Shown in pieces: positions 401-63,072 of a stretch of DNA of 64,000 nt. This stretch comes from Tribonema minus (lineage: Eukaryota; Sar; Xanthophyceae; Tribonematales; Tribonemataceae): contig JAFCMP010000268.1 in the NCBI GenBank assembly GCA_017506865.1, positions 124,001 through 188,000 of the forward strand, read 5' to 3'. The translations under genes were made by a program, and so were the position numbers. The stretch's first letter is position 1; the number at the start of each line of letters is the position of its first letter. Under the pieces are notes generated by a model. That model made no database searches. It was not told where the DNA came from and was given only the letters and a program-made list of their open reading frames with translations.

Positions 401-3400
401 CTGCTGGTCGGTGACGCGGAAGTACGCCCAGAAGTAGTACGTCATCTGGGCCAGCACCCTTGCCCAGTTGATAGAGTTGACAGCCCCCAGAGACACGCGC
501 TCCCGAAACTCCTTGTCGTTGAAGGCCGCCTTGACTATGGCCTGGCAGTCGTCAAACGAGCCCTCCACACTGTAATGCATTGTGGATAGACAACAGGGGG
601 GCAGCAAAGGGCAGGGCAGAGATATATCAGCAACTGATGCGCACGTAGGGGGGGGGGGCTGATCGTCTTGCTGAGCACTGCTGTGGCGGGAGCAGTTGCT
701 GGCATCAGTACGCCAGTGGTATGTAGCAGCTTGACTTTGAAGCATGTGACGTGCATGACGATGGCCTGGCAGTTGTGAAGAAGCCCTCCAAGCTGTGATA
801 CACTGTGTGAGGGAAAGGCAGGGGGCATAGGGCAGCCATCCAACAAGTATACGAACGCTGGGTTTTGCTGTCTGTGCTGAGCCATGCTGTGTTCTGAGCA
901 CTGCTGTCTTGTACCTTCAGGCTGTTGTCATATGCCCAGCACAGTCCGGCTCCGAGCTGCATCATCGACCACTCAATGTGTACATATGCATACATGCATG
1001 GTGCTGCTAAAAGTAGTCCGACAGCGATGTACGCATACATCTACACCTGATTATAAGCAGCTATATGACTACTGTTACATGAGTACTACATGACTACGCT
1101 TACACTGTCACCGCCTCGGCTGCACTTGACACAATATATGTTGGTGTCCTCCACTTGATAATAAGCAGCTAGACGACCACTGTTACATTGTGACTGTTAC
1201 GCTGTAACTGCCTCCAATGCCCACCTGACACAGTGGATATTGGTGTCCTCCACCGTGGTCATTTGCCGCTCCTGTATCTGACTCACGCGCCCCTCCGGGA
1301 ACAGTATGAAGCAGTCCATGTGCTTCTTGCCGCGCATACCATAGATGGCAGCAGAGCCTGTGAACGCAGAAGGGGAATCCATTATGCATGGTGAATACGG
1401 ACAAGATGGAAGCACATCAGCGCGACGCCAATAAGTTAGGGCTGGCAATGACATCAAGTCCCATCCGCAGTATGCGATAGCTCACCCAGTGCCCCCGCAC
1501 CACAGTATGTAATTGGAGTATGTAAATGGTAAAGCGCACCAGGACGTTGGTCAGCTCCTGCAAGGCATGTATGTATATATATGTGTGTGTGCACAGCACT
1601 CCACTCCAAGCATGCATGATCCATGTGCAGCACCAAAATGTTTCCAAATAAAGGCTGTGAGCTCAGAGGCTAGGGTCACCATCCCCTGCCCATCCGTGAC
1701 CACATTGAAAGCCTTACATCAAGCTGCCGCAAGTGCAATACATGGGTTACCTGCAATGCTACAATGCAATACCTGTACATTGTACACTGCCTTCCTCCCC
1801 CCCCCCCCCAGCCACACACGCAACAACACTCCGGCATCATGGCACAACGCCGTTTCATCCTGCACCACACTCCCAGCATCGCATCGCTTGCTTTACTCTT
1901 TTATCCTTTTCATGTAACCCAGTGCTCAGCTCCAGTGCGGCCCCTGACCTGTGTCTCCAGAGGTGGCCCCCAGTATGGTGAGGCGTGCCTGCTCGCCACG
2001 CGCCCTGCAATTGGGACAATTGCATGTCTCAGTTGGTGACGTTGTGACGTCGGCAATGTGATGCGTGAGCCAGCTCAAAATTGCATGGTTGGATAATGGA
2101 GGTACACGTACGCATTGCGATGCAGGGAAGCACTGAGCGAATTGCTTCAAATTATCCTCATGTGAAGCATGGGTTTCTGCAACAAAATGTGCGTACTACA
2201 CACATACATACCGTATGTAGAGCACATAGTCACTGGACTGAGCACGGCGTGCAACTTCAAAGCCAGCACTGTTGAATGTTCAGCAGATCCGCAGATCAAA
2301 GATGTGGTTCAACATCAGCAGGTTTGAGCGCCAAACCGACAGCAACAAAGCCTATGTTTCAAACAGGAATCACACATCCGTTGACAACGCAACCATTGCC
2401 ACGCTAGTTGCCATGGTCAGAGAGAGACATTTGTGCACCAGCCTAAGCAGGTGCTGCTGCTGATGTACTTCTACTTCACGCAGTTGCAGCAGGAACTTTG
2501 AACTCTGCGAATACAAATGTTGTCGTGACACGGAGGCATGGCATGAAACGCGTGGTATGGGTGCTGCATGCAATGAGCTCCTGGCATGTGTGTCACAGTG
2601 CAGCCCCACTGCTACAGTAAAATTATCTGCTATGAGCTTGTGTTGTGCTTGAATGCGTTGTGGTGTTGACGGGCGCACTGAAGTGCAATGTCGGCTGCAA
2701 GCAGCATGACTGCAATGTGACAGTGCCGTGTGTATGACGCACAATAGGAATAGACCAGTTGGCGTGTGTCGAGACATGGGCCATGATCGCATCCTGCCGT
2801 AAGCTGCATAAGCTTCACCGTTGCTTGCAATGGGTATCCAACTACTCCAACCGTTGCCGGATATACTAAAACTTCAAACAGATTACAGTTACATAAACGC
2901 TTGCTGCACACATGGCTCACCTGCGCCGCTCCAGAAAGAACTCAAAGAGGTTCCCCAAAAACTGCAGCGCCACGTCCTTGAACGCAAATGTGGGTCCATG
3001 CCACAGCTCCAGCACCCACACGCCCCCCACCTTAACCACTGGTGTCACATCTGTAGTAAAGAAGGTCAAAACAGCAGGATAGTGCAGTTGTGATGCATTT
3101 GCGCTTCAAATTCTATCATAATAGCCGAACGAATCAAGCACTTCCATTTGTTGAGCAGCACAAATTGCTATACTCAATTCTATGATGCAGTACAGACAGG
3201 ATTTCACGAAGCAAGAAAAGTGTACTTGCCTGGTGACCGGAAGGACTTGTATGATGCGTGCAGCAATCGCCTCAGGTCATCGCTGGGAATCTCGTCGGTG
3301 CTCACGTACTGGGACAGGATCGCATGTGCCAGGTCCGCAAAGGAGAGTGATCGCCACTGCGAAGACGACGGAAGAACAACCATACAAATGCCGTCAGTAA

Positions 3401-3595
3401 TGCGTGCGATTGGAACAGCAAGCCGATCACGAATTGCCGCAGGCGCACACTCACACTTTCGATTTCGTCCGCACTGACGGCAGGCACGCTTTCCGGCACA
3501 TAAAGACCTTTGTCCGTGGCCAAGCCGCCTAGAACCACGTCCTCGAAAGACATGCCATGATGTCCACCCCGTGTACTGCGGTACTTGACAGGCAT
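401..3595 (-). CDS. Threonine synthase, N-terminal half (3' part outside window)
   Basis: Converts O-phosphohomoserine to threonine with pyridoxal phosphate, the last step of threonine synthesis. Exons read on the minus strand: 3595-3455, 3356-3230, 3050-2921, 2004-1949, 1357-1225 and 569-401, together 252 codons with all phases closing. The start ATG at 3595 opens MPVKYRSTRG, the family's N-terminus. Further signatures in order are GLYVPE, LELWHGPTFAFKD (PLP-lysine region), ILGATSGDTG, SAAIYGMRGKK, EGSFDDCQAIVKA and LGAVNSINWARVLAQ. These match the yeast THR4/bacterial long type rather than the plant chloroplast type. The rest of the barrel, about half of the usual ~510 residues, must lie left of position 1. 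The donor at 400-399 opens an intron that runs to the window edge. The intron after exon 2 uses a GC donor (3229-3228). Two introns carry echoes of neighbouring exon ends. Confidence 0.95.
535..840. repeat. Tandem duplication across the 3' splice site of threonine synthase exon 6
   Basis: The start of exon 6 with its acceptor (around 537-590) recurs 224 bp away at about 761-815. ATGGCCTGGCAGT and AGCCCTCCA are shared, followed by a G-rich stretch in both copies. The copy at 761-815 lies in the upstream intron and no longer reads as the protein. Confidence 0.8.
1050..1262. repeat. Tandem duplication across the 5' splice site of threonine synthase exon 5
   Basis: Two adjacent ~100-108 bp units, 1050-1157 and 1158-1262, both begin near ATAAGCAGCTA and both end in TTGGTGTCCTCCAC. 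On the minus strand each unit holds the end of exon 5 (VEDTNIHCV) plus the start of the following intron. The upstream copy (1225 donor) joins in phase to exon 6. The other copy is decayed and intronic. Confidence 0.85.
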
Positions 3596-3948
3596 CTGCG
3601 AGGTTCACACAATCGCGGTCGGCAGAAGTGGTTAGACTCGCTTACCACTCACGCAGCTTGCACCGGAGTGGACAGAAATCCACCAAATCGGATGGATCAT
3701 GAGCTTTTGATAGCTGAAAGCGCACGGGCGCACCTGTAGCTCGTCCTACCTGCTCACACTTCACAAGCATGCAGGCACGTCACACACACATGCTGATCTA
3801 ACGTTACAGCGCTGTGACACAGCTCCGTCAACAGGAGCGTTACAGGAACTCTTGAATGAGGCCTGGCACAGATCGCCACTTACCGTGCTAGCGTGTGTGC
3901 CTGGATGGTGCCTCTGCCGTTCCTTTTCATTCATCAGTTTCCAGATGT

Positions 3949-4338
3949 GCCTTATTAGCGAGCTAGGTACGTATGTATGTATAAAAGAACTGTGGCACGC
4001 TTGTGAGTGGAGTGGAGGTACCCAAGTGAAGTCCAATAAAAGTACAGGGTTAGGGCTAGGGTTAGGGTTAGGGTTAGGTTACCTGCCGGGCTGCAAAGCG
4101 CTAGCCATTATTGATGTGCCATCATCACAGCTGTCAGGTGTACCATCATCTGATTGTTGTCAACATTCGACGTCATTGGCGAGTACAATTCATGATGTCC
4201 ACAAACACCATCCTCTCTGTGGCATAGCCTGCATTGAGTACACGCGCGCTCCACTGCCCTCCACTGTTTAGGTCACGCTCCATACTGGGGGGATTCGGGT
4301 ACTTCGTCAGCGTCCAAGTTTATTGAAATTAACTCGAA
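3949..4338. repeat. Dispersed repeat, copy A (with telomere-like insertion)
   Basis: Aligns end to end with 10818-11210. Shared blocks include CCTTATTAG, AATAAAAGTACA, CTGCAAAGCGCTAGCCAT, ACACCATCCTCTCTGTGGC and TTTATTGAAATTAACTCGAA. Both copies start and stop at the same points, so this is a discrete ~390-bp element. No ORF or terminal inverted repeat was recognised. Copy A differs by a (TTAGGG)n-like tract at 4046-4081 between AGTACA and CTGCAAAGC. It may be a non-autonomous mobile element, but the class is unknown. Confidence 0.8.
4046..4081. repeat. Interstitial telomere-like tract inside repeat copy A
   Basis: About five TTAGGG units with slight variants. They interrupt the repeat exactly where copy B at 10818-11210 is contiguous. 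Confidence 0.9.
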
Positions 4339-5984: not shown

Positions 5985-6009
5985 AGGGTTAGGGTTAGGG
6001 TTAGGGTTA
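5985..6009. repeat. Interstitial TTAGGG tract
   Basis: About four TTAGGG units in a row, ending in TTAAGG. Confidence 0.9.
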
Positions 6010-11800: not shown

Positions 11801-14800
11801 TGGAGGCAATCGTGGCGGCGAACGCGGAGGCTGAGGTTCAGGGGAACATAGCTTCGGCGACCAAGGCGCAGCTCGACGCGGCGCTCAAGTACGTGAACCA
11901 GCAGCAGGAGCGATGGGAGCGGGAGCTGGCAACCACCAGCGGCACCAACTCTCTGGCACCATTGGCTGGCACAGGGCTTCAGGCCAGGCCGTTTGTGGAC
12001 ATCAGCACCGGATCGCTCTACACCCCTGATGCGGAAACCCTGTCCAGATCGGTCACGGCGCTGGTGTTCATCGCCTTCGTTGCGGTGTTCGCGATGGCGA
12101 CCGCGCTGGCGGGGTGGGCATGGCTGTTCCAGGAGCGGCGCATGCGGCGACTGCTGCGCGCTGCCATGACGGACGACCTTGCCAAGCACTCCAAACCCCT
12201 GACGCAAACGCCGCACGGTAACAAGACTCTCGACGGCGCTGGCAGCAAGTACGCATGGCACACCGGCAAGGACGCGGCGACGACGCCCTATAACGTAACT
12301 GCCAACCCCAGTTCGAAATCGGTGGGGGGTATGGCGGCGAACGCGCGGCTCAATGCGACCCCTGCCAAGTCTCAGCAGACGAATGGGCCCACGCCCTACG
12401 ACTCGCCCGACAGGTCGAGTCTGTACTCGAGTAACGACGACGTGTCGCCGCTGACCAACTCGTCGTCGTCCACAGGGGAGGGCATCACCGTCAAGGTGAG
12501 AGCGACACGCAGTGCGTACCAGAAGAGCTGAGTCGAGTTCTTTCATACTGTCTGACAATGCGCTTAGAGCACTGTCGTTGTGGCCAGCCAAGGCCATCAC
12601 AGCGGGGTGGGTGTAGAGTAGTGTGAGTTTTGGACCAAAGCCGTGGCGTCTTCAGTGAGTGTTGCAGCGCTTTCGCAGTGCTCAACGTGCTGCGGCACTG
12701 CTCAGCAGCGCTGTGGCAGTGTTCATCATGTTTTGTTGACAGCGCTCGGCAGCTGTTGTGGCACCGCTCAGCAGTGCTGCTGCAGTGCTCAGCAGGTTGT
12801 TGACACAGTGCAGCAGCCGTGTGGTGTCATTACTCAGCCACTACCCATCTGCACCTGCCATTGTGCGCCTAGTACTTACACTCACACCGTGCCACTGCTG
12901 TGATCTGACGCTATGCATTGCTCCCTATGATTGCGAATGACAGGGGCTCATGTCAATCGCGCCGACGGTGAAGGAGGAGCGCTGGGTGGCTCTGCCCCCT
13001 AACCCGGAGTGGGTGGTCAAGAGCCCCTCGCCACAGGTATGTATATGCTGCAAAAATGCAAGTTGAAGTTTTCTGTCGCGATGGTCCAGGGACCGTGTGC
13101 AACAGTTGAACAAAGTTGCTTTAGTTGCCGTACAGCACGCGGGATGACTGAGCATCGTATGCGGTAGCTGAAGTCAGGGCTCACGGCTTTGCTGTGTCAC
13201 GTATCTTCGATGATGCTCAACGCAGGAGCTTATGATTGCCGGACTGCATGTACTTGCTGATTCCGATGGAATGCAAACTCTCTGCAGCTACACCACCATG
13301 GGTTGAATCCTCCATTTCTGAGCTGTCGGTTGCATCGACGCTGAATGTGTTGCCACTGCATACGAGCTCCCTCTGGCATGATTGCCGCCAGTTTTGCATC
13401 TTGCAGCTACATATACCTAACAAAGCTGCTAACCCTAATATGACCCCGATCCCTAAATGTTGCAACAGCCCATCATGGCGCCCATACGGACAAAGCAGGC
13501 GTCCAAGGCGTCGCTGGAGGAGCAGAAAGCGCGACGAGAGGAGGAGGAGAGGCGCCAGCAGGCAGAGGTATGTATGTATGATGTCTATACAATATACCTA
13601 CCTACTAGGGTTAGCTGGTCAGTGTTGCCTATTAGGGTTAGGGGCAGGCCTGGATGAGGGTCAGGGCGTACTGTAGGTTTAGAGGGGCGGCAGCGGGGCA
13701 CAGGTGGGGTATCCCTACAGTATACCGGCATTACTAACAGATTGCTGTTAGAGTTAGGAGTGGTATAGGACAAGTGTGGAGGTAAGTGGCACGGTTGGGG
13801 GTGATCGTCTATACCCACATTGAAGTTGGCGTGGTGAAACACTGTGTCTTGCACTTCACCTCGCTGACGTCGCAACAGGAACGGCTAGTGCAGCATTGCT
13901 CAGCACGACGCAAGGCCATTTGGCCACATATATACGCATTCGATCAGTGCTCAACATCCTGCTTTGAGCCACGGTTTTGTGGTTCTGACTGGTATTGGGT
14001 TCACTGTGTCACATTTGGCATGGGCCTTGAGCACAAAAAGAGGAGGGGTCTGACCCCCCTGTGTTGCTATGGCATCGCCTTCCCGTGCTACAGGCAGAGG
14101 CGGCTCAGGTCCGGCAGCAGACGCGGGAGCAGTGGGTGCCGCAGCTGCAGGTGCCGGTGGAGGTCGAGGTGAGTCGACACAGTGCTCGGCAGTTGCAGCA
14201 TTGCTCAGTGAGCGGAGCATTTGCTTGCAAGGGCAGCGGCGGTTGTCGGTGGAAGCGGGGTGGGGTGGGAGGAGGCGGTCTGTGCGGTGCGGTTTGCACT
14301 CAGCATTGCACTGCAGCATTGCTCAGGACTCTGACTGCGGCTGAGCCTGGTCAACATGACCGATGCCCATGTCGTGATCGTTACAGCAGCGCTCAACGGG
14401 CAGTTGCAGCAATTGCTCAGTAAGCTGAGCGTCGCCAGCCTGGTCAAGTATGACGGTTGCTGTCTTCAACGGTGCCTACAGCATTGCTCAGCCATGTGCA
14501 GCATGCAGTAAACTGAGTGGCACTCTTGCCATCGTTGCTGGTGACCGCACTGCGCGCGGAAAGCACATACTCTGACTCTTATGCTCTGACCTGCGCACTT
14601 TGAGCAGTAATCAGTTTCATGACTGCACACTGCTGCGCGTAGGATCACACATGCACTGACTCACATTCTCTGACTCACTCGCTGACACCCAAAAACTCAT
14701 ACCCACCCTGCAGGAGATCATGGACAGGCTGTCCCCGCTGCCCACCCTCTCTAATGTAATTGTCACACGCCTGACTAGCACACACTGACTAACGCGCAAT

Positions 14801-15278
14801 CATACCTACCTTACATCACCCTCTCATCCATTCATGATCCATTCATGATCCATTCACGATCATGCAGGAGATCATGGACAGGCCGTCGCCGCTGCCCATC
14901 CTCCCACGCGACCACCCGCTCGCGGTGCAAGACCACCTGGCGGCGCGCAGCATCGCGTCCACCGCCCCCAGCATGGTCAGCGCCACCAGCGCCAGCTCCA
15001 ACGCCTCCGGCAACTCCATCTTTGACGTCGACAGCGTCGGCTACAGCCCGTGGCCAGAGAGCAGCATGCAGCTGTCGGAGGATCAGAGCGTTGCGCACGC
15101 GAGTCAGGCCAGTAGCGTCTGGGAGAGTGCCTGGATGGAGAAGAGGGCGGATTCGCGCGCGGCGAGTTCCAAGGGGCTGTTCCGGTCGAACCGCACGGAG
15201 GACTCGCCGGGGAGCGATAGCACGGTGACGCATGACAGCAGCGACAAGGCGGACAGCCCGGGTACTGATAAGGACTGA
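8873..15278 (+). CDS. Multi-exon membrane protein of unknown function
   Basis: Modelled exons: 8873-9137, 9729-10090, 11595-11652, 11780-12495, 12944-13036, 13469-13567, 14094-14168 and 14868-15278. All phases close, giving about 692 aa. Exon 2 carries two hydrophobic spans (LLLLSILFLILFIVG and a second beginning VLLLLVTIGPWG). Exon 4 carries a third (VFIAFVAVFAMATALAGWAW) followed by basic residues. Helix-rich sequence rich in Gln and Glu lies before the third span. After it come a Ser/Thr/Asn/Pro-rich tail, a charged coiled-coil-like exon (SLEEQKARREEEERR) and an acidic Ser-rich C-terminus. I recognise no family. The middle is the weakest part: extra exons between 10091 and 11594 are possible (hydrophobic frames near 10600-10760), and that intron holds dispersed repeat copy B. 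A 42-nt alternative copy of the last exon's start lies at 14713-14754. Confidence 0.55.
10818..11210. repeat. Dispersed repeat, copy B
   Basis: Second copy of the ~390-bp repeat at 3949-4338, in the same orientation. It lacks the telomere-like insertion and instead has extra sequence around 10915-10945. It sits in what I model as intron 2 of the membrane-protein gene. Confidence 0.8.
14704..14905. repeat. Duplicated 3' splice site and exon start (155-bp offset)
   Basis: TGCAGGAGATCATGGACAGG occurs at 14709-14728 and 14864-14883, followed in both by C-GTC-CCGCTGCCCA-CCTC. The first copy is followed by AAT|GTAATT, so it could be a 42-nt in-frame exon. The second copy opens the last exon. Confidence 0.85.
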
Positions 15279-22905: not shown

Positions 22906-25900
22906 CTACCTATGCAGCGGGTGCCGCCCCCTAGTACTACTCCCCCCTCCCCCTGCTGAGCCGCTGCCACCGTGTGCGAGCACTGCCGTCTGCCCATACG
23001 CATGCAGCACCATCGCCCCCAGCTCGCTAGAGCTCATGAGCCCTCCTCCCGCGCCCCGCCGAATAACAGAGGATTTGGGCCGTCGCCGCGTGTTCGCCGA
23101 GCCTGTGACCCTCCCAAGAAAAGCGCCGCCGCCGCCACCGCCGCCGCCGCTATTGCCGGATCTAAGTCCCAACCGGCTGCTCACGCGGCTCTCCGCGCCC
23201 GCCGCAGCTTCGGACATGTCACCGCCGCCGCCGCCGCGAATGCCAGCGCTGAGCTGGCGCTGCAGCAGCAGCGGCGCGGCGGCGGCGCTCGTTGCGGTGG
23301 GCAGCGCGCCGCCGTCGCCCGCAGCAGCGGCAGCGGCAGCGCTCGCCCCCCAGATTCCCCGCAGGTCGACGACTAGCGCGGTGGCGTTGTCGAGCGAGCC
23401 GCGCTGCATGGCGACGGAGACCAGCACCGCGGAGCACTGCTGCGGCGTCATCCCCTGCTGCAGCACGCACTGGTGCGCCATCGCCGCGCACTCGGCGCTG
23501 CTGACAACGTCCCACACGCCGTCGGTCGCCAGGATGAGGAACTTGTCGCCGACTTCAAGATTGCGCACTTGAAGTTCGGGCTCTGCGTTTATGGCCCCGC
23601 GCATGTTTCTGTCGCCGAAGGCGCGGCTCACTGCGAGGATGCCGTTGACGCGCGGCACGCCAAAGCTGAAGATCACGCGCCCGCCGCAGGCCTGGCGGAT
23701 GGCGTGGGGTATGTAGGTATGGATATCATGGGTGCTCTAGGGGGGGGGTTGGTAGACTTTTTTTGCACCTTGAAGTGTGGACGAGCATGGTATTTACGTA
23801 TGTAGGCAGCCCCATTATGCCTGGATTAGAGTCATACAATTTGTTGAGCAGTTGATGGTAGACCAGACTCAGCTGAAGATGACGCGCCCGCCGCAGGCCT
23901 GTCGGATGGGGTATGTAAGTATGTGTTTACATCACGGGCAGGGTGAGTAGTTTATACATGGACGTGCTAGACTATACAGTATGTAGAACTGACCTGCGGC
24001 TTGAGACGTTGAGTTAGGGCGTACGAATGCGCTCTGGTAAATAGATGTCAGCTGGTTGTATGGTATGCATGCATAGAATGTGATGGTATTATGGTTGTGT
24101 GTAGATGGTGCCTCCTGCGTCCCCTAGAAGAGTTACACACTGCATTGCGCTGCAGAACATGCAGCACAGATTGATGACTTTCAATCTCACCCTAATCCTA
24201 ACCCTGACTACATGTCAAGCAGCAAGCTCCCATGCTGCAAAATGAAAGCAGATCCCGTGTCCGTTCCACAGCCCTATAATAGAAGGGTTAAGGTTAGGCT
24301 TAGGGTTGGGCAGCTACCTGCCCACTGTACCCTCGCTCGGACTAAGCCTCAGCACCACCTCTTATGCCTGCCTCTACTTGACCATGTACCAAGACTCAAC
24401 ATCTCTTGTTCTTCACAGCGCCACCACACACAGCATCACATATCATACCCTCCACACCACAGCATAGCACATCACAGCACAGCACCGCACAGCACAGCAC
24501 AGCACAGCGCATACCCTTACCTACCCCCTGCTTCACCCATCTACTGCACCTACAGAGCCCACAGCAGTACAGCACATAATTTTACCTTACCTACCTACCC
24601 CCTTCCGCTCACCTGAATGCGCCGCCGCTCCTCTGGCCCAATGGGCTTGTTGCCACATGTCTCATACCATGCCCCTACCAAAAGCCACGGCCCACAGTAC
24701 GTACATGACATACCCTTACCTACCTACCCCCCCCCGCTCACCTGTATGCGCCGCCGCTCCTCCGGCCTGTTGGGCTTGTGGTCAAACGACAGCGCCACAA
24801 CGCGCCCCCCCGCGCACACCAGCACCGCGCGCGAATCCCCCACGTTCGCCACCGTCAGCGTGCGCCCCCTCAGAAACGCCGTCACCGCCGTGCTTCCGTC
24901 ATTCGCGTTGAACCTCTCGGCCTTGCGCAGGAAGTCAGCGTTGGCGCGCGCAAAGCCGCGTGCGATGGCAGTGCTCAGGTCGCCGCCGCGCTGAAACTCG
25001 GGGTCGCGCGCCACGCACTGCGCCAGCGTCTGCGTCAGCGCTCGGCTGCAGCGCCCGCCTGCGTGCCCATCGAAGACGCCGAAAAAGGCCGTTCTCAACC
25101 CCCCCCCTCCCCCTGCCCCCCTCCCATCGCCCCCCTCGTCTAGCCCCCACGCCCCCGCCCCCGGCGTCGTCTCCAGGTGTGCCAGCACGCGGTACTCGTC
25201 CTCCATGTAGGGGCGCTTGCCCTTGACGGAGCACACACCGACGGCGATGCCCTGCTGCGCGAGGGCGCGCTCCTGCTGCGCGAAGCACGCCGCCGCCGCC
25301 GCGGCGGTTTCGCTGGCGCACATGGCGGCGGTGTGCGCTGCGGCGGCGCTGCTGCCCAGGTGCGGCAGCGCGTGCCTCGGGGCCTGCGACACGGTGGCCA
25401 TGTCATCTTCGAGCTGGGGGCTAGCTGCTGTAGCCGCTCTCGGCATCTCGCTCTGCTGCTGTTGGGCGCCGGGTGCAGCGGCGGCAGCTGTCATGAGGGA
25501 GGTGTAAGGTTCGCCTCCTGAGCTGGCGCTCATGCCCATGGCAGCGCTGCTGCCGCCGCTGCCGCTGCTGCCTGACAAGGGATACTCGCCGATGTTGCTC
25601 CACAGTCTTTTAGCGATGGAACTGTGAAGGGCGAGGCCCGATTGCGGTCGGATGTCGGCTAAGAGCTGCTGCTGCTGCTGCTGCCTGCTGTTCAGAGGGC
25701 TAGTCATAATCACCTTCTGGTCTGCCAGGACAGGCGAGATGCGACCCAACTGCTGCAGGTGGGTGAGTGTGCCACCGCCGCTCTTAAGGCGTGCTCCATT
25801 CGGAGGGCTGTGAAACATGCCCTGTTCCCTGCCGCCGCTCATGTTGCCGGCCACCGCCCTCCCATTGCCTCGGGAGGGCCCTGGCTGCCTCTGAAAGAGG

Positions 25901-26634: not shown

Positions 26635-29600
26635 TCATCTCTTGTGACGTTTTGCTGCGGCAGCGGCGGTTGACGCCATGTGACCCATGGGCTTCCCTGC
26701 TGCAGCACCGGCCGCATTCTTGGCTCGACGTTTGTGCCCATGCGCTTTGGCCTTCATGGACTCATGCTCTTCCTTGGTCCAGACAACTTCGCCCTCGCGA
26801 TACCTGCAAGTAGAACGTACAAGGACACTCCATTAGTTAGTCAAAGAAATCAAACACTATTCAAATACCGCTGACATCAAAGTTGCTGCTGATTTCAAGC
26901 AGTTCCTGCGTGAACACGTGTAGTCATGTAGTTTCCTGAGAGGCGTGATCTGAAAATTTACTAAACAGGTACCTTATCAGCATGTGTGCACGTAGTCAAA
27001 GTATCATGGGCGCGAGACCTGAAAATGTATGCCAACGTAATCAGCACGGCTGCTGCTTCTGCAGACGTCATGAAAGCGTGCTGCTCAAGAGTATATGCAC
27101 ATCCTGATGATGACGTTTGTTCAAGCACACATGACACAAAGGGCTTCTGAATAGCGCCGCTTGATTCTACCGGTAGACTCAATATGCTTGAGACTCACTC
27201 AAAGCATGCTGCTTTTCGTCATTCTGATACTTTGAAGTATATGCAATGCTATTGACATGACGACAGTGTTCACCGCCTGTCAAGAGCTGCGATTAATCTT
27301 AGTGCCTTCCTGAAGGGCTTTGTTCAAATTTACGCCTTCCAAAGTCCACCTCATGATGCGCTTGGGGTGGTCATGTCAGAAAGGTGAAGTTGAAGTGTAC
27401 ATGTACTTCAAGTGCAGCGGCTCCGGCATGGCAACGCACTTGAAGGGCACATGCACAGCGATGTCGCACACTGCGCCGCATGTGATCGTCACACAAATTG
27501 AAGTACTTCGAAGTGTGCAAGTTTGTGGCGCATGTGATCGTCACACAAGTTGAAGTGTACAAGTTGAAGTCTCATTATAAGCGCCACCAACATAGGTGTG
27601 GCTTCACCAAGCTACATAGCATCAGCTGAAGCCACGACCTAGCATCGGCGTCAACGCAGACCTGCTTTTCAAAAACAGTGTCTCAAACTGTTACGTCAAT
27701 GTGGAACTACTTCACTTGAAGTATGGAAATACTTGGCTTGAGGTATGCTGTACCTGTAGTTGAAGAGCAGCTCCTCCTGTGCGGCAATGTCGCGCAGCGC
27801 AAATATGCCAATGCGGTGGTCCCCCCGCACCATGATGATGCGTGAGCCACAGTTGGGATTGAGCTCCGAGTGGTTAGCAAACTTGCTCTTGTTGCCCTTG
27901 CGGTGCTGGTCGATGACGGCCTCGCTGTTGAGGTTGAAGAGGTATGACCTGTAATAGCAATGATATAGAGAAGTTGATGTTGAAGTTGCACAAGGAGGAA
28001 AATTGGACATGAACATGACATGAAGCACTCGCTGTTGAGTTGCAGCAGTATGACGTTTTGAGACACGGAGCATTTGTTGTTGTTGTTGAACAGAAAAACC
28101 ATGGATTTACCCGTTGAACAGCAACAGTCACGAAGTCCTCGCTGTTGAGGTCTAGCAAGTGAGTTTTCACATTTGGGGTCATCACAAGAGATTGCAACGA
28201 AACGGGCTTGCTGTTAGGTTAAACAAGGTAATTTGAACTACAGCAATGGACTGACGGCATCAAAGGCTCATGTTGCACACAACGTACTTAATCAGGCATG
28301 TTGTAGGGTTACGGGCAGATGCCCGCTGGCTTCATGTCCTGATGTATTCATCAAGCGCATGTTGTTTTGTTCCTGCAGAGCACCACGTGTTCCACTTACC
28401 TACTACACAACAAATGCTTGTTGTTGTCACACAGGAACATATAGATTCATGTATGCACCTGTTGCGCACGTCGTACATTGGACTGTGCCTATCCTGTCCG
28501 CAGGTAGATCTGAATAGCAATCACGTACATACTACACATCAATTTACTGATGATGTACGTTATCACAGATTAATGTATGCACCTGTTTCGCACGTCGTAC
28601 ACAATCAGGAATGTTGTAGGGTCAGGGGTAGAGGGGTGAGGGTAAGGGGTAGGGTATGTATGCACCTGTTTCGCACGTCGTACATGGGACCACGCCTGTC
28701 CGCCTCATGCTGGCTGATCCTCTCCCCCAGGTACTCGCATACAAACTCCCCCTTGCGAATCTCCGAGTGCGCAAACGCCCCCCACCCCGCCCCCGCTATG
28801 TCACTGGGCGCTATCAGGAGCCGCTTGTGCCGCCGGCACGAGAAGCTGTTGTTGAGGCAGGTGACCGTTTCGCCGTCGGGCGCGGCGGCGGAGGTGGAGC
28901 GTCCCTTGAAGTTGAAGTTGAAGTCTATGGCGTCACACTGGCACATGGTGCAGAGGTCGGGGTCGCACTCGCGCGCGAGGCCGAAGCACGGGCAGGCCTG
29001 CAGGTTTAGGTTTAGGGCAAGTCTAGGTGAGTCATCGTGACAGCCCACAGCTCAGCTCATGATGAGTCTGAGCCCTGTCGGGCCTTGAAGTGGCTGTTCA
29101 TGTTTGCCTCCTGGTTTTCAATGACCACTTCTTCTAGCACCACATGCACTAGCCACAAGTGTCGTGTCTGCTTACACGGTGAAGTGCTATATGCTCTCAA
29201 ACGCGCATTCGCATCACTCAAGTCCATGAACCTCATCTAATAGTTTCAAAGTTGACACAATCATGAATGGCCGACGCTGCTTTCTTGTTGAGCAGTTGAA
29301 GGAAATTGCAGCAATGTCTTGAAAAATAGCCTTACTGTTAGCAATGTCTAGAAAAATACCCTTAGTGACACTATCTGTAACCCTAATTTTCGCCCAAACC
29401 CTAACCCGCAACCCAACCTACTCTTATAATGCGGGCATGTACGTGCATGGCATGGCTTGCTTCTGTACTTTTGCCGCACAGAATCGCCGCAAGCAACTGT
29501 TGTACGAAGCACGTGCACGAGAGGTGCTCGTGCCAAAGCATGGGGGGGGCTGTGCAAGCCAGTTTCTGTTTCCATTGGCAAGCCTTCTGTTCAAAAGTCC

Positions 29601-32600
29601 TGGCGCAGCTCAGAAGTCGGCTGCACAGATCCTGAGCTGGGTCGATGCAGTGAGACGCATCCGCTATCCCTACCGAGTACATCAGCGCACTTCTTGCTGT
29701 GTCTGTGCAACAGCAGTGGTCACATCAGTTGCTGTATGCAGCCCGCCGTTGCCCTAGCTGTTTTCCCAAGCGGATGGACACGGACAGGACAGGAAATGCT
29801 GTCGATGCCTGAGCTGGTCTGTGTGTGTACTGACACATGCAGCACTCTGAACCATGGTCAGCTGGAAGCACAATGAGCTTAACATCCACCATTTTTTTTT
29901 TTTTTTGCCGCCCTAAGCGAGCATGGTGACAATATGAGTTTACACACGGACTTGTCCCGCAGTTCAATGCACTTGCACGCCAGGTTGCTATGGCACACTC
30001 ACTCACTTGCTTTCACAGCACCTCCAAGCAGGATATGTACTGAGTGTGCCGCATAATACTTCAACTCCTGCGCGCAAACCTCAACACTTGCTTGCGTGGC
30101 AGCGCTCACCTTGGTTCTGCAGCGACCGGCCTTGCACCGGCACCCCTTGAAACGGTTGGGGCAGTCTAGGGGGCACTGGCAGTACTTGTCACAAAAGTGC
30201 CCTCGCTTCATGCACTGGCAGTCCGCCATGGGCCCCTTGCACACGCCTTCGTGGCTGCATGGCTGGTAGGGGGGTTTCATGCCGGATTCCCCCCCTTGTT
30301 CCCCCTCCCCCCCCTCCTGATCGTCACCTTCGGCGAGATTTGAGTGCGCCGGCGGTGCTGCCCCGGACATTTGTGCTGAATGACAATTGCAGCATGGGCG
30401 CGATGGTCTAGCGTGAGTGACTTGAGAAATACTCAACGACACGAGATCACATTTAACAGAATGTGTGATCTGATGCTGAAACGATGCGCTGAGCGATCGA
30501 AAAAGGAATCGAGCATGAAGAGGCCAGAAGGCAGGTACAGACGGCGCTCTGGTCGGTGCAGCAAAGAAGTGCAAGTAGCTTGAACAAAAAGTACCGAATG
30601 CATGGCCAAGGGACTCAAGAGTCATGGAGTCATATCATTGCAGCTTAATATCGGGTCATTCAGCACACGCAGGCCCCACTCAAACTTCAACATGTGCGAT
30701 GCGAGGCATGCAGTGCGACAACCAGCCGCAAGCTCACAACTGAGCCGTGCCACAGGTCGTGGATCGGCCAATCAGAAGCTGCAGCAGCGCTCCACAGAGG
30801 TAGAGCTTGCCGCCTGCCTGAGCACTGTTGAGCTCACCCCGCATGGTCGGCAGTTACGGTGAAACTGTAAACCTGCCGTTGATGTGTGTCCGCATTGCGT
30901 CCGTGCCGCGGGTGCTCTGGCGGCTGGCTGTTGAGGCAGACGTACTTATGACGAAGTTGCGGCTGGGGCATGTAGAGCATACGCAGTGTCGAGGTATTGT
31001 GTACTACATCAGGTGCGGGTTGGGCTGCAGTATTGCTATGGATGATGAAGCGCTCACCTGGCGTGTAGCGGCGCTGCTTGCTTCTTGAAGTAGACTATTA
31101 ATAAAGTGAAGTTACTTCCACCGCAACACACTGCATGGTGTTGGTCAATACGCAGCAGTAGGGTCAGGGTTAAGTAAAGTCACCTGGCGTGTAGCGGCGC
31201 TGCTTGCCCTTCTTGCCCTTTCTGCTCCGTGCCAGCCGCGCCGCCTGCTCTTGAAGTTCCACCTCCTTCAACTGCTGTTGCTCAGCAACATACTCGGCGG
31301 CTCCACACCTCCTGCAGCAGCCAACACAGCACACCAACGGAAAATACTGTTGGTGTTGGCATCCTCAAGGACAGAGGCTCACTTGTGCTGTTCCTATGCC
31401 AAATGTCATGCAGAGCAGAAGATTGCATTCACTGGGTGCTTGCAATGCTTGAAGTGGCCACCCGCCCCGGTATGTATTGTAGTTCATGAAAGGAGAAAGG
31501 ATTGCGTCAAAGTTGAGGAGGTTTTCCGCCGGTGACACTCATCTCAACCTAACCCTTGATTGACTCTTAATCCATCCAGCATCGTTTCCCAGGAATGCGC
31601 TTTCAATGAAGCCCAAGCGTTCAAACTGATGTGCACAAGTTGAAGTGCACTCAACCCCTGCTATCTGCCATACAGTGTGACTTTGCTGTCCAGTAACATG
31701 TTTCTTCAGCGTAGGCATGTATATGAAGGATTGGAAGGCATTGTCAATAATGTATGCCCCCATACTTATACTCTATCCAGCACACTGGTGTCACGAGAGC
31801 ACCCCTAGAGGTTTGCAGCAGGAAATGCACATGGGCACTTCAGTAGGTATCTTCGATTGCATGCTGGCTCAAGTTGAAGTTTGGGGCTGCGAGGCTAGGT
31901 GAAGCTGTCGGCAGTGCTCAGCAGTGTTGTCAGTTACAGCCTTGCAGTGCAATGGGCATGGCGCACCCTCGGCCTCCGCAGCCTCGACCCACACTATCAA
32001 GTTGAGGTTTTGCATCATGGCATCGCGCTACTGGCGTCAGACCCAGCGAGGTGCCCCTGAAGCTTACTCCGGCCCTACCACAGGAAAGCCCACAAATGAC
32101 GCTCTGGTTACACCACACCAGTGCGTAGCGCGCAGGACACGCTGCAACAATCGCAGTGATCGTCCGACGGTCTGCTGTTCCACAAACTTCACAACATCAC
32201 ACCTCCAATCAAATGATGTGGTGGCGCAGCCGTTACATCAATCCGCTCACTTTGCGCCGCACAAACCAGTCCTCGCAAGAAGTGTTTCTATCAAGTGGGT
32301 AAGCTTTAACATTAAACCCCAACAATACCAAACTTCAACAACATTATAACAGCAGCGCTCACCTGCCCAGGTCCTGTGCGGCGTGCTCCGTGACCCCCAG
32401 CACGTCCCCCACAGCCCCCACCCCCTCGTCGCCCAGTATGAGAAACGCCCTCCGCGCCAGCGAGCTGATGTGCAGCGGGTAGGCCAGTTGCTGAGCGCTG
32501 CTGCGGCGGCTGCCGCCCTCCTGAGCGCTGCTGCAGCTGCTGATCGACTGGGCACTGGTGCGGCTGCCACTTTCCTGAGCGCTGCTGCAGCTGCTGATTG

Positions 32601-46670: not shown

Positions 46671-49600
46671 ATGACACAACCTCAGCTGCCGTCGCTGCCA
46701 GCCAATTTGCGCAGGCATCTGGAGCAACGCATCGCTGGAGCACTGTCTGATGCTTGTGACCCGTTGTGTGTTAGCTCGAGACTGGTGGACGCAATCGCGA
46801 CACAGGAGCTGCAGGCGCGGGGTGAGGACGGGCTCAATGGCAGGTGCCACCACAGGGCAGAGAAGCTGGCAGCATGGCTGCAGTCAGCACCCCAAGAGGC
46901 TGCTATGCTGCAGGTCAGCGTGCTGCATGTAGTTTGACTGGACTCGAAAGTGTCGATTTCGTGAGACTGCGCCTATGCAGCTTGCAGTGCTGTTATTGTG
47001 TGGGGGGGAGTCCCCGTAGTGCTCGTGCTCGCTCAGTAATTATTCTGGTTTTGTCTGTAGTCGTACTATGATGTCAACCGCTCCATTTCACATGCTGGTC
47101 ACGACGATTCAATGTTAAACTTTGCAGTGATTGAACTCTGTCATGTACGTGGTTGCAACTACAATCAGCTGCCATGGCAAGTGTGCAACGCAGATTGCTG
47201 CTTCGGGGTGACAACTGTGTCGAGTTGAGGAACATGATTCAAACATTTTGTCGCTTTCCAAATGTCAACATCAGAGGGGAGAGCTGGACGCAGAGGAGGC
47301 TCTGGCATTGCTATCGGCGTTTCTGAGGGGCCTGCACGAGAAGCGGTCACGCGGCGTAACGGCCGGCAAAAACATCACCTTCCATCACGAGCGCATGCGC
47401 AAAAGGCTGGGGGAGAGGGACGACAGTGCAGCGGGCGATGACGCAAAGGTGATTGTCTCTCAGCTGAAATTGCTGGTAATGTGCGGCACGCACAATAGGC
47501 ACACATGAGCTTTGACAGCTCCTCGTGCCATGGTGTAGAATGAGCATCAGCGTGCATTACCAATGCTGGCACATGGTATTACAGTAGTGCGGTTGCTGTG
47601 GCTCCAGGTGCGGTCAGTGCTTGTATGAGGGCACACATGACATACGCACACCATGCTTGGCAGTGCTTTGAAAAAAGGGCAAGAATTCATCAACCATCAA
47701 CAACTCCAGTGCCGCACAGCTTACCGCCACCTGCTATTGTTGCCCTCCTTGTGCTCATAATTGTGTAATTGGCGTGTTCACCTGAGCGGTGCAGGCCTGG
47801 GCAGCAACGCTCAGCAAGACTCCGTCTAGCGACCTTGAGAAGTATGCAGCATCCATGGCGGTGCTGTCAGAGCGGCGCTGGGTGGCGTCGGGCTATAAGT
47901 GGGCTGCTGAGCACTGTAGGTGGCACATGGGGGGGCCGGGGGAGGCGAGGGCCATCAAGAGGGCAGCACGGCAGCACTATTTTCTGAGCACTGGCACAGG
48001 TGATTTGAAGGGTTGGTATTGAAGTTCTGTGTTGCAGCACTATTTCCTGAGCACTGGAGCAGGTGATGTGGAAGGTCTTCATTGAAGTTATGTACTTCGA
48101 AGTATTGAAGTTTGTTATGAGAAGGGTAGTGAGCTGTTGCCCACTAGCTTAATGCTGTACGCCGTCAGAGGTAGGCTTCCAGGTGACTGGAGCCAGAGGA
48201 GACCGACACCAGTCGTTCGCTGCTATAAGTGAATGCATGTCATCCGTTCACCGGAAAGTACAACCGCTGTAACGTCAGTGTGTCACAATGAACTTGTAAC
48301 CGCCGTAATGCTTTAACACATTTGCGGGAGACCTGGAGAGCACTGCAAGGGAGACACGCGCGGGGTTTGTGAAGGGGTTCAGCCCATCAGCAGAGCACTG
48401 TTGCAGCAGCGTTATCTGACTGTTTGCAGAGGTGTAAAAGTGTTTTGTGACACGGGCCATCATCAGATCACGACAGCAGCTGAGTTTCTGGAGAACTGGC
48501 ACATGTGAAGAACTGTCTCATTGCTAAGTATGCGGTAGACTATTGACCTATCGCTGGGCGTTGCAGAGGGCACGTCGGGGCTCAAGTGCAGGGACTTCAA
48601 CAGCTCAGCGTCGCAGCACTACTTTCAGAGCACTGACGCTGATGCTTATGTTGAACCTTACAGTTGAACCTTGCTACTGATATGAAGAACGTGTGGACAA
48701 AGCACTGCTCATGAGGATATGCAGTCTACCTGCATTGAAACGAATCAAAAGGTCGAAGAGCTCTAGGTGACAAGGTGCGGTAAGCCGTCTCACGATTTAC
48801 GGCAGCAGCAGCAGCTAGAGAGACTGATGCACATAGTACCGAAATTACAAATTTGCTCTCTGTGTGGTCGTTCCGTTCTCTTCTCCGCTTTTCATACACA
48901 CGCAATGACATAAAAAGGGCGTAAATATGCTGGTAAACGTGCTGCGCTTCCTGTGGCCCAACACTTGTTTAGACTTGTCTATCCTACAATAATTGAATGA
49001 ACACAACTTTCAACACCGACTCTGCCACTTCCACTTGCAGTGATGCCGCGGCAAGGCCCGGAAGAAGAGGAGCTGTTGAGACAAATGGGGGCTTACTTGG
49101 GGGGCAAGCAAGGGGACTCAGCAGGCCCCATTCGACTGCTCGACATCGGCAGTTGCACGAACCCTTTCTCACGCATGGAGGGGTTTGAGGTGACAGCACT
49201 GGACCTATGTCCAGGGCATCCCAGTGTCTATCAGGTAATGGCGGGTTGTTGCTGCGCACTGTGCGTCGTTGCTTGTACGCAACGCTTGCAATGTGCTGCA
49301 GCATGAAAATTCCGCTGGTTGTGCGCGTGTGGGGGGCATACATTTCTCGTGCTTCAGAGTTACCAGCGCAGTCCAATCCAGTGCTCAACGTGTATTGGCA
49401 ACCTGCGTATCTCCAGAATTTTAGTTATAACACTGGAATTGGCAGTGCCCCACTGTGGCCAAAGGCATGTGAATTTCGCATACGCAAATTTGCATATACT
49501 CTTCTCAAGCCCCTACTGAATACGGGAGCTGCTGGTAAATGCCGCAAATTTGACATCATGTGTTGATCCACTGAAGCCCCAGCACAGTGGTACAGTGCTC

Positions 49601-51437: not shown

Positions 51438-54400
51438 ATGGCCACGAGGTTACAAAGACCGTCGGTAAGAGCTGATGGCTCATGATCATATGCTGCATGC
51501 TCATTACAAAAGCGCAAGTCATGGTTCTCACACCCTTGCCTGTTGCTGCTGCTCGCTGTGCACCCGTGCTCAAGTCGTCAAGCCTGTCTACAAGGTGAGT
51601 GAATTTATGCAACTGGCGTCCTCAGCGTTACTTGCCGGAGGGCGGTCCTTACAAAAACTGATCATGGCTGGCTGAACCGCCAAGCACCTCGATCACACAG
51701 AAGAGCACATTGTCAGTGTAATGAGCTTTTCCAAATTAACAGACTTGACGTCAATACCATTCCTTTATCCTTGCAAGCATACGCCGGCACAAGAAAATCG
51801 GCACAGGACCGATATAGAATAGGCAAAGTACACACTCTACAGCCCTGCTCACTAGGGCAGGACATCTATACATAGTGTACATGTACAGCGCAGCCGAAGA
51901 TAGAGCTATCAGCCAGATCGGGCATGCATGGCGCAGTTGAAAACAGCAGCTCGTGTTGGCGATGCACAATGGCACAAACTTGCTTTCATAATCATGACTT
52001 GAAGTCATCGCAGCCCTCCTCTTGAAGACATAGTCAGTGTCGCCGCTGCAGCATGGCAGACTGCATGCATTCGCCTGAAGTGCTCGGCTGGCTGGTTGCG
52101 CCAGAACCAACTGCCATTCTGAATCTCCAAGTGCATCTCAGTTGACGGCAGGGATGACTAGCCAGCAAGTGGTTGCCAGACTGAGTAGCAATGACAATTT
52201 TGTTGACCTTTGGCACTCCAATAGCGCAGCTCCCTCCAGCCTCATGCACCGCCGCTGCAGCACTGAACCCCTCGTGACTGAGCGTGTGCATGCTGTGGTA
52301 ATGCTCAACAACACTTCTGGCTGTTGAATTTCAGTCGGCGAGCAATAGCCAACATTGCCGCAGTGACGATCATCGCTGGCGCAAATTGCGTGAAACTCAT
52401 TGTGGACCTATGGTGCTTTTCTGCGTGCAATGTCAACAGGTGAAGGAGATAGTCAGCTACGTCCACAAGCCTGTGTTCAAGGTAAGCGCTCAGCTCCACT
52501 TCCACCTGCATCTGCGTGCCTTATTCATGCACTTTGGTACAGCGAGTAAGCGTGCTTTTGCGAATGTACGTCAAGTTCACGTAGTGTATGCTGTCCTCTG
52601 AGTGCGTGGCAGCCCAAGCGCTGTCTCTGCACTGCTGTTATGGCTTCGGCACTGCGACCATACATAGAGTGAGCACTGCCACACATACTAAACTGCGCCG
52701 TCTGCATGTGCCGTCAAGGAGATGCACCAGTGATTGGTCGAACGCACTACGACCATACATAGAGTGAGCACTGCCACACTGACTAAACTGCGCCGTCTGC
52801 ATGTGCCGTCAAGGAGATGCACCAGCGATTGGTCGAACAATCGTAGTGCATGTTGGCTGGAGGCCCGCAGTTGAGATCACCCCAACAGCTGAAGTCAGCA
52901 TGAATGTTGAGGCATGAGTGACAATGAAAAGCAGCGGCAACATGAGGATTGGTCCTTATGTCTGTAGCTGCGTCGGTACCAACACGCTGCTCACAGTCCT
53001 GTAGATCGACAGCAGCTGTGCTGTACTGCGCACACACTTACCTTAGCATCATTTGCTCATGTCTCCGCTGCCTGCTGCATGTGCCTGTCGCAGATCAAGC
53101 CTGTGCCATATGTGGTCGTGAAGCCCGCCTATGTGGTAAGCATCTTGACTTGTGTACCGTGAGTTTTGCACATACATTGGAGCACACTCGTGGTGGTGCC
53201 TGCTCTTACAAGTAGCGATACCTTCATAAAGTACGTTTACGTATGATCTTTGGAAGAGGTATGATGTGAGGTACAGCCATTTTGTCAATTTTCAGCTGGT
53301 GGCGAGTGGTTAATGGAAGGCAATACTGCAGCCGCATGCCAGGATGCAGTCGCTTCCCTGCCTTGGCCATATACGGATGCACACATACTGTCACTTGTAA
53401 CGAGTCTTGCCTAGCAGTCGTAAAGCCCAATTTCAGCATGTTAAACTACACGCGGTCACGTGTCCCTTTATAGATGCAATGCTTGCAAGAGAAATTTCTC
53501 TGAACTATGATCTTCCTACTGCATGTGTATGACCTCTCTTGTTTGCTCAGGTGAAGACGGTGCCGCAGGAGGTGCACCGCCCCTGCTTCACACTCACGCT
53601 ATGGTCTTTCTACTGCATGTATATGACACCCCTTGTACGCTCAGGTGAAGACGGTGCCGCAGGAGGTGTACCGCCCCTGCTTCACACTCACGCCAGCCCC
53701 CGAGACAGTCATCAAGCCCGAGTTTGTGGTGACGCCAAAGGTTGAGGTAAGACATGCTCATCAGCCTTACCTCTAAAGCGATTGCATGATGGTGCGTAGT
53801 TGATAGGACTACAGTAGCTGGTTTTGGAACTGCAACCGCTCATATTCACGCATGATGAGCGGTTTACTACGTCAAAGAATTACTTTGAATACACGGTAAA
53901 AAGCACTTGAGGTCTCCACTGCTGGACGGTTGGAAGTAAGTTTTGTATACTCGTCAGTGCAGCAGGTAAGTAGCGCTGGCCGTATGGCTGCCAGATGATG
54001 CATCAGCAGCTGTTTAATCAGCTTCACACAACTGCCCTGGTGGGCGTCTGTATAGTCGCACAGTACTGCACAAGCATAGTACATGATGCCACATGCGCGA
54101 TGCTGGCTTATGGTCAGGGTGAGGGTCAATGTGGCTCATTTGCTCGGTCGCGACAATTTTGAATTTGGCCATCACTGCCACGCAGCACACACAACAAGAT
54201 GCCTTTGTGCATGTATGCGAGGCGCGTGATCACTTATTTTGTAGTAGCGCTTATGTTGCGCCATGTATGCACACTCTGTCATGCTGCGCACGTCGCCCAG
54301 GACAGCACCAGCCCGGCATGGTACACCACCTGTCCCCTGCAACGCAAGTGTTGCTCTTGTAAACCCCCTTTCTTTTGGCATCTCTTGTGCAATCTCACAG

Positions 54401-61186: not shown

Positions 61187-63072
61187 CGCATTTGACCCTC
61201 TTGCCCCTTGGAACACCGACGCAATGCTGCTCTTGATGTCCCCCCCCTGTCCCCCCCCATCCCCCCCCCGCCCCCCCAACCCCCCCCATGGCTTGAACTT
61301 ATCTGCCACCATGGATCGTGGCCGTGTTTGTTGCCGGCCCGCAGTCGCAGCTAGCGGTGCGTCGCGACCCTCGTCATTTGTCACAGAGGAGCGCCCGTGG
61401 GTTGATGAGCGTGCCTCTCGCGCCGCTTGCGCCCCCTGCAAGATGCGTGTGGGGGTGAAAGTGAGGGGTAAATAATGATGCTTGAAGTTTTTGGGGGGAA
61501 TGGGTGATGATAGGTGCTTCGTAGCACATACTCCCAGCTAGTGGGTGAGTACCTTAGGCCTCCCTGCGAGGTGTCCAACATGAAGTTCACAACACTTCTT
61601 GAGAGCACGTCACCCGCTTCATTCAAACCTCAAGTTGAAGCAAGCGAGAGTGAGTCCCGTTGAAGCGCACAAGAGCTCATGATTGATTGATTGAGCACTT
61701 GAGGACGTTGCCACCACACATTGTCATCAGGTGACATCATACATACATGCCCAAGGGTACTTCAAGTCCTCATTGGTTTCCAGAGAGCCCGTAGCACAGT
61801 ACATTCCCAAGTACAGTCTGAGGTGCTGCACAGTGGCTTTGGCTCACTCGAGGAGTCTGCAATCAAGCCAACCTGATAGTGCTGTGAAGTACAGTCATAG
61901 TACAATGTACAGTACACTGCACTCACCGCCTCTTTTCTTGCCCGTTTTTCCCGCTTTTCGCGTTCGCGCTTCTGCTCCCGGATGATGTAGTCATACGTGG
62001 TCAAACCCTCCCGTGCTGGCAAATGTGAGCAAAAACACGAAGAGCAGCGCCGCGAGCGGAAAGCAAGCACATGAGGTGAGGTGCTGAGAATAGGATGCCG
62101 GATACTAGGGTAACCCTCTTGCATTGCATCACATGAGCACATGACTGGTTTGAATAGGGCAGCAGGCACCGTGACACAGGCTGACTGCACCTGCTGCTTC
62201 TGTTGAAGACCCGGAAAGTGTGTGTGTGTCACTGTCTGGTAATGTACATGAACGAACATACTTTGAGGAGTTCTGTGGCACTAAAGAGTAGATGAAGTCT
62301 CTGGTAGCAAGCTTGACATCAAGGTGGAATACGGCGCGCCTGCATCAAGACACGAAAAAACAAGTCCACGAACGCTCATTGGCAGAGTGTTCTTGGGGCA
62401 TGCATCACATCTTTGACAGGCGCTTGCACACGCGTTGTACTTTTAAGTTGAAGTTTCAAGTATGTACTTGAAGTGTGTGTTAGGACTCATACCACTGCTG
62501 TGGCATCAGGCCGAGCAGTGTCGCATTGGCAGAACCATCGTGTAACCCTAACCCTAACACTAGGTGTTGTTACGCCACCAGCAGGCAGCCTGTGCAGATG
62601 AATGAATCATATGAATGAATTGTGTGGTCACCCAGATGAATGAGTTGCATGGTCGCCTACGCGATGCTCCACGACAGTATACTCAGGTGCCCATACCAAT
62701 GCTGGCCCTAGGAGCTGCATATGCAACATGGTCTTGGAACAAGAGCTATGAAAGAAGCCAGTGACACGACACCCATATGGCGCCCTCTCGCGTGCTTCTT
62801 GTGGATTGTGATGGTTTCTACTGATAGCTTCGATTTCTACTGATAGCTTCTGCTTACCCAGCATGATGTGGAAGCCGATAAGCTGTATCATCACCGCTAG
62901 TAACGTAAGATAAACATTGTGTTACGTGCTTTGTTTGCAGTGTACTGATTTTCACTGAGACTGAGACCTGGGCTTACCCAGCATCATGTGGAAGCCGATG
63001 AGCTGTATGAGCAGTCCCACAAAGGGCAGCACCATCACCGCAAACACATAGACGATGATGATGTACCCGTCG
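61187..63072 (-). CDS. DHHC palmitoyltransferase, C-terminal part (5' part outside window or unresolved)
   Basis: Exons 63072-62978, 62015-61927 and 61435-61187 join with closing phases. The first codes a transmembrane helix (YIIIVYVFAVMVLPFVGLLI) ending FHMMLA. The second begins REGLTTYDYIIREQ, the TTxE-type motif that follows the last helix in DHHC S-acyltransferases, then a highly charged helix. The third is a low-complexity tail with Gly runs. The catalytic DHHC cysteine-rich domain is not seen up to position 64000 and should lie further right. The position of the TM helix before a GLTTYDYI motif is the main evidence; the enzyme attaches palmitate to membrane-protein cysteines. The 3' end is uncertain: the third exon ends at a donor (GCG|GTGAGT at 61187). 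Confidence 0.7.
62541..62562. repeat. Interstitial telomere-like tract (CCCTAA orientation)
   Basis: TGTAACCCTAACCCTAACAC: two full units plus variants. Confidence 0.85.
62851..63017. repeat. Echo of a 5' splice site in the DHHC gene
   Basis: CTTACCCAGCATCATGTGGA (with AGCCGATGAGCTGTAT after it) at 62973 is repeated with few changes at 62853, 120 bp away. Both read GCTGG|GTAAGC on the minus strand. The copy at 62853 lies inside the intron. Confidence 0.9.

Follow-up and report, generated by a model that had tools for sequence, protein, structure and literature searches.

Why should introns carry worn copies of the exon ends that border them? The question is raised by a stretch of the genome of the xanthophycean alga Tribonema minus (GenBank assembly GCA_017506865.1, contig JAFCMP010000268.1, positions 124,001 to 188,000; hereafter the window, meaning this whole stretch of 64,000 nucleotides), in which an original prediction, made from the sequence alone, had pointed to such copies at eight genes. 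We use the term echo for a degraded copy of an exon edge and its splice site inside the adjoining intron. In our judgement the echoes are quite probably the leftovers of short tandem duplications across a splice site, of which the inner copy decays unselected, with a distribution that even placement and slower exon decay do not fully explain. Because selection preserves one member of each echo pair, the pairs are fossils that gauge duplication rate, intron growth and neutral decay within a single genome. An excess at junctions, if true genome-wide, would tie a mutational process to splicing or to exon chromatin and define a testable route of intron lengthening. The pairs also carry a warning for annotation, as some predicted exons in this genome are copies.

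The material comprised the window, which lies on contig C268 of a 158-Mb assembly of 554 contigs, and 19 tiles of 10 kb from the same genome, 254 kb in total, over which a self-trained gene finder produced 36 gene models. Ungapped self-matches of the window at offsets of 25-499 numbered 83 at a score of at least 14, against 5 and 5 at far-offset controls, and 41 at a score of at least 18, against 0 and 2. Over the 254 kb, complexity-filtered matches with a score of at least 17 at offsets of 40-399 amounted to 167 near direct events, compared with 4 at far offsets and with 7 inverted repeats over a similar range of distances. Near direct duplication is genuine and no peculiarity of the window. 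For splice junctions, each predicted exon edge was matched against its own intron, retained at a score of at least 80 and compared with random-intron controls. Within the window 18 of 102 predicted junction sides reached this score, and 13 of the 18 exceeded all controls; the five that did not lie at 9729, 14168, 17625, 34927 and 48000. At 48000 the control of 345 corresponds to 69 matches of 5 and is taken as a draw overlapping the query itself.

Copies of splice sites were found at seven of the eight genes named in the original prediction. The eighth, placed at 6.8-7.5 kb, was not borne out: no listed match starts there, the region offers only the weak pair 7811/7943, and no exon is predicted. 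Confirmed sites have offsets of 63-224 bp, in agreement with the 62-226 bp first proposed. Both of the sites suggested in the threonine synthase gene, both sides of the PP2C intron and the donor of the DHHC gene are clear. Three of the four sites claimed in Enhancer of zeste are equally so, and the remaining one, junction 32869, is weak (86 against a control of 80). The methyltransferase pair stands once the control at 48000 is read as a self-hit. In the membrane-protein and secreted-protein genes the copies are real, yet the gene finder calls both members of the 14709/14863 and 53505/53599 pairs at least partly exonic, in a model without a stop. The copies, together with a comparison duplication, are as follows.

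530..592, minus strand: threonine synthase exon start with 3' splice site, junction 569; score 160 against a best control of 71; Pfam Thr_synth_N and PALP
754..816, minus strand: intronic echo of the 569 acceptor, offset 224
1200..1269, minus strand: threonine synthase exon end with 5' splice site, junction 1225; score 154 against a control of 85
1103..1169, minus strand: echo of the 1225 donor
14709..14749, plus strand: membrane-protein gene, copy 1 of a TGCAG and exon-start segment, called exonic; 93% identity to 14863-14903, offset 154
14863..14903, plus strand: membrane-protein gene, copy 2 of the same segment, called exonic
23664..23714, minus strand: PP2C exon 2 start with 3' splice site, junction 23691; score 190 against a control of 78; the PP2C domain (Pfam) spans the intron behind this junction
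23871..23924, minus strand: echo of the 23691 acceptor
24717..24786, minus strand: PP2C exon 1 end with 5' splice site, junction 24742; score 260 against a control of 89
24588..24657, minus strand: echo of the 24742 donor
27913..27952, minus strand: Enhancer of zeste SET exon start with 3' splice site, junction 27948; score 111 against a control of 82; SET domain (Pfam)
28020..28058, minus strand: echo of the 27948 acceptor, AG lost
28656..28701, minus strand: Enhancer of zeste exon end with 5' splice site, junction 28666; score 176 against a control of 90
28449..28494, minus strand: echo of the 28666 donor; an incomplete third copy begins at 28573
31180..31215, minus strand: Enhancer of zeste exon end with 5' splice site, junction 31184; score 154 against a control of 75
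31054..31087, minus strand: echo of the 31184 donor, 28 nt exact
47971..48024, plus strand: Bmt2-like methyltransferase exon end with 5' splice site, donor 48000; 82% over 60 nt, offset 63, score 180
48034..48087, plus strand: echo of the 48000 donor
53505..53598, plus strand: secreted-protein gene, copy 1 of a 94-bp tandem duplication holding a 3' splice site; TRF, 91% self-match
53599..53692, plus strand: secreted-protein gene, copy 2 of the 94-bp tandem duplication
62960..63013, minus strand: DHHC gene exon end with 5' splice site, junction 62978; score 186 against a control of 69; DHHC domain (Pfam)
62839..62893, minus strand: echo of the 62978 donor
52649..52838, no strand assigned: for comparison, a young 95-bp tandem duplication entirely within a predicted intron, 95% matches

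These assignments depend on gene models whose trained splice signals approximate CAG/GTGAGT (donor) and GCAG/G (acceptor), the training seed having been similar to these. The gene finder fuses neighbouring genes: Enhancer of zeste and PP2C share one window model with other genes, the DHHC gene is joined to an adaptor-complex subunit in a second, and a third takes in the methyltransferase and the secreted protein. Nine protein pieces drawn from the 36 models were submitted to Pfam, and a family was found for eight (threonine synthase, SET/CXC, PP2C, Bmt2, adaptor subunit with DHHC, histidyl-tRNA synthetase, HIRAN/SNF2 and pyridine nucleotide oxidoreductase). The ninth, from tile L008, returned no family in the Pfam search; we take its gene to be a P-type ATPase from its letters, which Pfam did not confirm, and its 14 junction events depend on this unconfirmed model. 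The histidyl-tRNA synthetase piece (tile L006) aligns with PDB 3hrk over residues 2-396 of 410 with two single-residue gaps, and the junctions in the aligned part are therefore very likely correct; in this conserved part 13 of 14 junction sides have an echo. Across the window and the 190 kb of tiles, at the base threshold, echoes occur at 41 of 296 junctions of introns of 150-1500 bp (about 14%), very unevenly.

What produced the copies can be read from their layout. The pairs are direct and near-tandem, the intron flank is copied along with the exon edge, and the inner copy drifts as non-coding sequence. The duplicated unit measures 79-327 bp in 36 clean junction echoes. In the 31 echoes with enough intron, the flank is copied above the 95% null over its whole length in 21 and over any part in 22; by zone, this holds for 19 of 31 near the junction and 10 of 31 at the far end. 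Stretches between the copies lack a dispersed match within the 254 kb in 35 of 36 cases, and the three tried genome-wide find only themselves. Since the repeats are direct and not inverted, the intron flank is copied and no shared inserted element was found, the origin is best read as tandem duplication with one site still working, the explanation first offered. In the pairs that were read, both copies belong to one junction and share their register, the echo lying within an intron that already existed, and none has a new intron with duplicated AGGT as its ends, the mark of intron gain by tandem duplication. Similarity that ends sharply past the splice site might suggest splice-limited copying, but in gapped tests the flank is mostly copied.

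Tandem duplication would act as follows. Short local duplications would keep arising in this genome, presumably as DNA is duplicated anew through repair or replication slippage. Whenever a unit spans an exon-intron junction, the outer copy would remain the working splice site and the mRNA, to judge from the sequence, would be unchanged; the inner copy and its exon piece would stay in the intron and drift like unselected DNA. The intron would lengthen with each such duplication.

By the refuting condition set with the original prediction, echoes no denser at exon edges than tandem duplications are in intergenic DNA would count as a by-product; they are denser. When 60-nt windows were compared with 300 bp of adjoining sequence at a score of at least 80, a copy was found for 23.4% of 64 donors and 21.2% of 66 acceptors, as against 4.5% of 911 intron-internal, 2.4% of 127 exon-internal and 1.7% of 59 intergenic windows, the last set being small because gene models merged. 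Null rates for such windows are 0-0.8%, except for exon-internal ones (2.5%). A position scan with 40-nt exon windows gave 10-16% echoed within about 60 nt of a junction and 5 of 761 overlapping windows when the near edge lay at least 60 nt inside the exon, the intron background being 2-9%.

Whether even placement could generate this density was addressed by a simulation in which duplications are placed evenly, copies drift, the exon copy decays slower and detection is the same as for the observed data. In introns of 150-1500 bp, junction and intron-internal events stand at 54:54 at the base threshold, 52:40 at a score of at least 20 and 48:31 at a score of at least 25; when each junction is counted once and echo-to-echo intron matches are dropped, 41 junctions remain against 35 events. 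Split by contig, the 54:54 events come to 19:13 (c100), 14:22 (c160), 8:7 (c268), 6:4 (c130), 4:1 (c550), 3:3 (c190), 0:3 (c268b) and 0:1 (c10).

Several of the comparisons weigh against our reading of the echoes as products of tandem duplication. The ratio of 54:54 is set against a simulated 0.30-0.34, or 0.42-0.50 with introns diverging twice as fast (one-sided binomial p 6e-9 at a ratio of 0.32 and 8e-5 at 0.47, both assuming independence among events that are not fully independent). Without the intron-length limit, a looser set gives 61:80 against a simulated 0.33-0.36, and random placement without decay expects 37.8 junction and 96.3 intron events where 61 and 80 are seen. Slower decay of the exon copy accounts for part of the density at junctions; with that decay included in the simulation, junction-spanning events are still 2-5 times as frequent as simulated, depending on threshold and model. 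Nor does the junction fall at random within the unit, a result that bears on even placement and not on origin: the exon share exceeds 0.55 in 3 of 36 units, compared with 56% in simulation (Kolmogorov-Smirnov p 8e-9). Intron flanks are more decayed than expected from the exon part, lying above the 95% null in 52% of 31 echoes against 74-79% simulated, and above null in 68% against 98% simulated at an echo age of 0.12. Finally, among pairs of in-between stretches the best two scores, 112 and 110, slightly exceed the top control of 104.

An old burst of duplication would inflate the junction ratio, but the median identities of 0.88 (junction) and 0.84 (intron) fit ages for which a ratio of 0.19-0.26 is expected; the model reaches a ratio of at least 0.74 only at a divergence of at least 0.25. 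The influence of annotation was gauged by re-running the gene finder on 8905 artificial duplications. The right boundary was retained in 80-98% of cases at exon shares up to 0.85 and in 65% above, and the echo itself was called exonic in 8-19% (share below 0.55) or 28-44% (share above 0.55). Annotation conceals part of the large-share echoes, too few to explain the limit on exon share. The exon part of the unit spans 23-193 nt, with a median of 52.5. A minimum intron part makes sense at acceptors, where a unit that lacked the branch point and the pyrimidine tract would presumably disable the outer site; at donors we see no equivalent reason.

An alternative that draws on the same results is that exon-intron junctions are duplication hotspots, for example through breaks tied to transcription, splicing or nucleosome edges, which would make echoes more than a by-product. 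The two- to five-fold excess over simulation speaks for it, as do the 21-23% of junction windows against 4.5% of intron-internal ones, the rarity of a junction beyond the unit's middle and the 13 of 14 sides echoed in one verified gene, that of the histidyl-tRNA synthetase. Set against these points, the sample is small, with 39 of the 54 junction events coming from three 10-kb tiles, introns may mutate faster than modelled, selection against units that sever splice signals could shape placement, and roughly one in three large-share echoes would pass as exonic and so stay hidden. Hotspots therefore strike us as possible and rather unlikely, and we would be just as tentative in proposing that in this lineage a splicing- or chromatin-linked process copies some 80-330 bp around a working splice site, with introns lengthening stepwise from their edges.

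The unevenness of the sample also qualifies the suggestion that echoes are a genome-wide habit, which holds on average and fails locally. At a score of at least 20, 10-kb tiles (n=25) contain 0-39 events (mean 5.6, variance 77): L006, L007 and L008, on contigs C100, C130 and C160, have 26, 12 and 39, and the other 22 tiles 0-8. Across 12 contigs, events tend to become sparser as non-coding G+C rises, a weak trend (Spearman -0.55, p 0.06). Tiles L003, L005 and L011 (contigs C10, C70 and C520) have a G+C of 62-63% and 0-2 events at this score, other contigs ranging from 53 to 57%; L004, at 56.5%, has none. The three high-G+C tiles may belong to a separate compartment or stem from a different source within the assembly.

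Returning to tandem duplication, the fate of the inner copy can be followed by comparing the 36 echoes with the live exon. Mismatches at codon positions 1, 2 and 3 are 81/667, 78/667 and 150/666 (77/631, 73/631 and 135/630 without two rows from an array of 54-nt exons). Positions 1 and 2 mismatch equally, and the echo therefore drifts freely; the third-position surplus reflects synonymous change in the exon itself, and after subtraction echo positions 1 and 2 drift at about the rate of exon third positions. The third-position share of mismatches is 0.49, close to the 0.47 or so calculated for a free echo and a constrained exon. Of 38 gaps, 37 have a length that is not divisible by 3 and break the frame. 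The inner copy appears on these grounds to be no coding spare exon, and not clearly a retained decoy.

That echoes are selected as decoys or spare splice sites, an idea also raised in the original prediction, fares poorly in consequence of this drift at about the synonymous rate and the loss of frame. Its one attraction is that the splice dinucleotide (GT/GC or AG) is retained in 32 of 35 readable echoes (18 of 19 donors and 14 of 16 acceptors, one displaced acceptor being set aside). Drift alone predicts a retention of about 0.77-0.82, and the one-sided p of 0.05 against 0.79, or 0.10 counting the displaced row, is suggestive at most. We hold selected decoys to be decidedly improbable.

Much the same applies to the view that echoes are tandemly duplicated coding exons, perhaps alternative ones, misread as introns, which we consider very improbable. 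It can draw on the 54-nt exon array in L008, the source of 2 of the 36 echoes, and on the 14709 and 53505 pairs, called exonic in both copies; the frame is nevertheless broken by 37 of the 38 gaps, and most echoes carry only part of the exon. The array itself (L008:7296-7803) consists of 54-nt repeats, two of them called as 54-nt exons, that encode near-identical NVNGVNVAEIE-type repeats, and it looks like live exon multiplication beside decayed copies.

An introner-like origin, in which a mobile element inserts and duplicates a long target site, would fit the non-repeated sequence between echo pairs and the flank homology undetected in 9 of 31, and is largely refuted by the copied flank in the other 22 and by in-between stretches of which 1 of 36 has a dispersed match in the 254 kb and 0 of 3 genome-wide.

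Internal gene duplication was reportedly treated by Gao and Lynch in 2009, and Vaughn and Bennetzen are said to have described, in 2014, short tandem duplications arising from patch repair of breaks. Echoes share with both a high natural rate of short direct duplications, and we know of no census of splice-junction echoes in either work.

Three further published systems are also close. In the potato RdRp gene, the 3' side of an intron and the 5' side of the next exon are tandemly duplicated in a single described case (PMC4974935). The duplication crosses an intron-exon boundary, as here; the potato copy, however, became a new intron and exon (PMC4974935), whereas in Tribonema the inner copy apparently lies idle in the intron that was already there, and such events are seen at about 14% of the junctions sampled. 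The regions 14709-14903 and 53505-53692 of the window may represent a step from echo to new exon or intron of the potato kind. According to the intron-source model, duplicated exonic AGGT yields an intron of the duplication's length (PMC3443670, PMC2891723); exon sequence is likewise duplicated locally and removed by splicing, but in Tribonema the duplication copies a junction that is already present, and the only effect is a longer intron. Tandem exon duplications in animals include unannotated intronic copies, and some of the duplicated exons are RNA-supported (PMC9013439). There too, homology reveals exon-like sequence in adjacent introns (PMC9013439), although the Tribonema copies are mostly exon edges and out of frame. 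Among the matches listed from the open-access literature, judged by title and opening of the abstract, no account of splice-junction echoes as a genome-wide habit appears, which is weak evidence of absence. On these sources, junction-spanning duplication is known from the one published case found, and what is new is the density and a possible splice-linked bias.

Besides the echoes, the window holds interstitial telomere-like AGGGTT/GTTAGG repeats at 4046-4078, 5985-6013 and 33503-33560.

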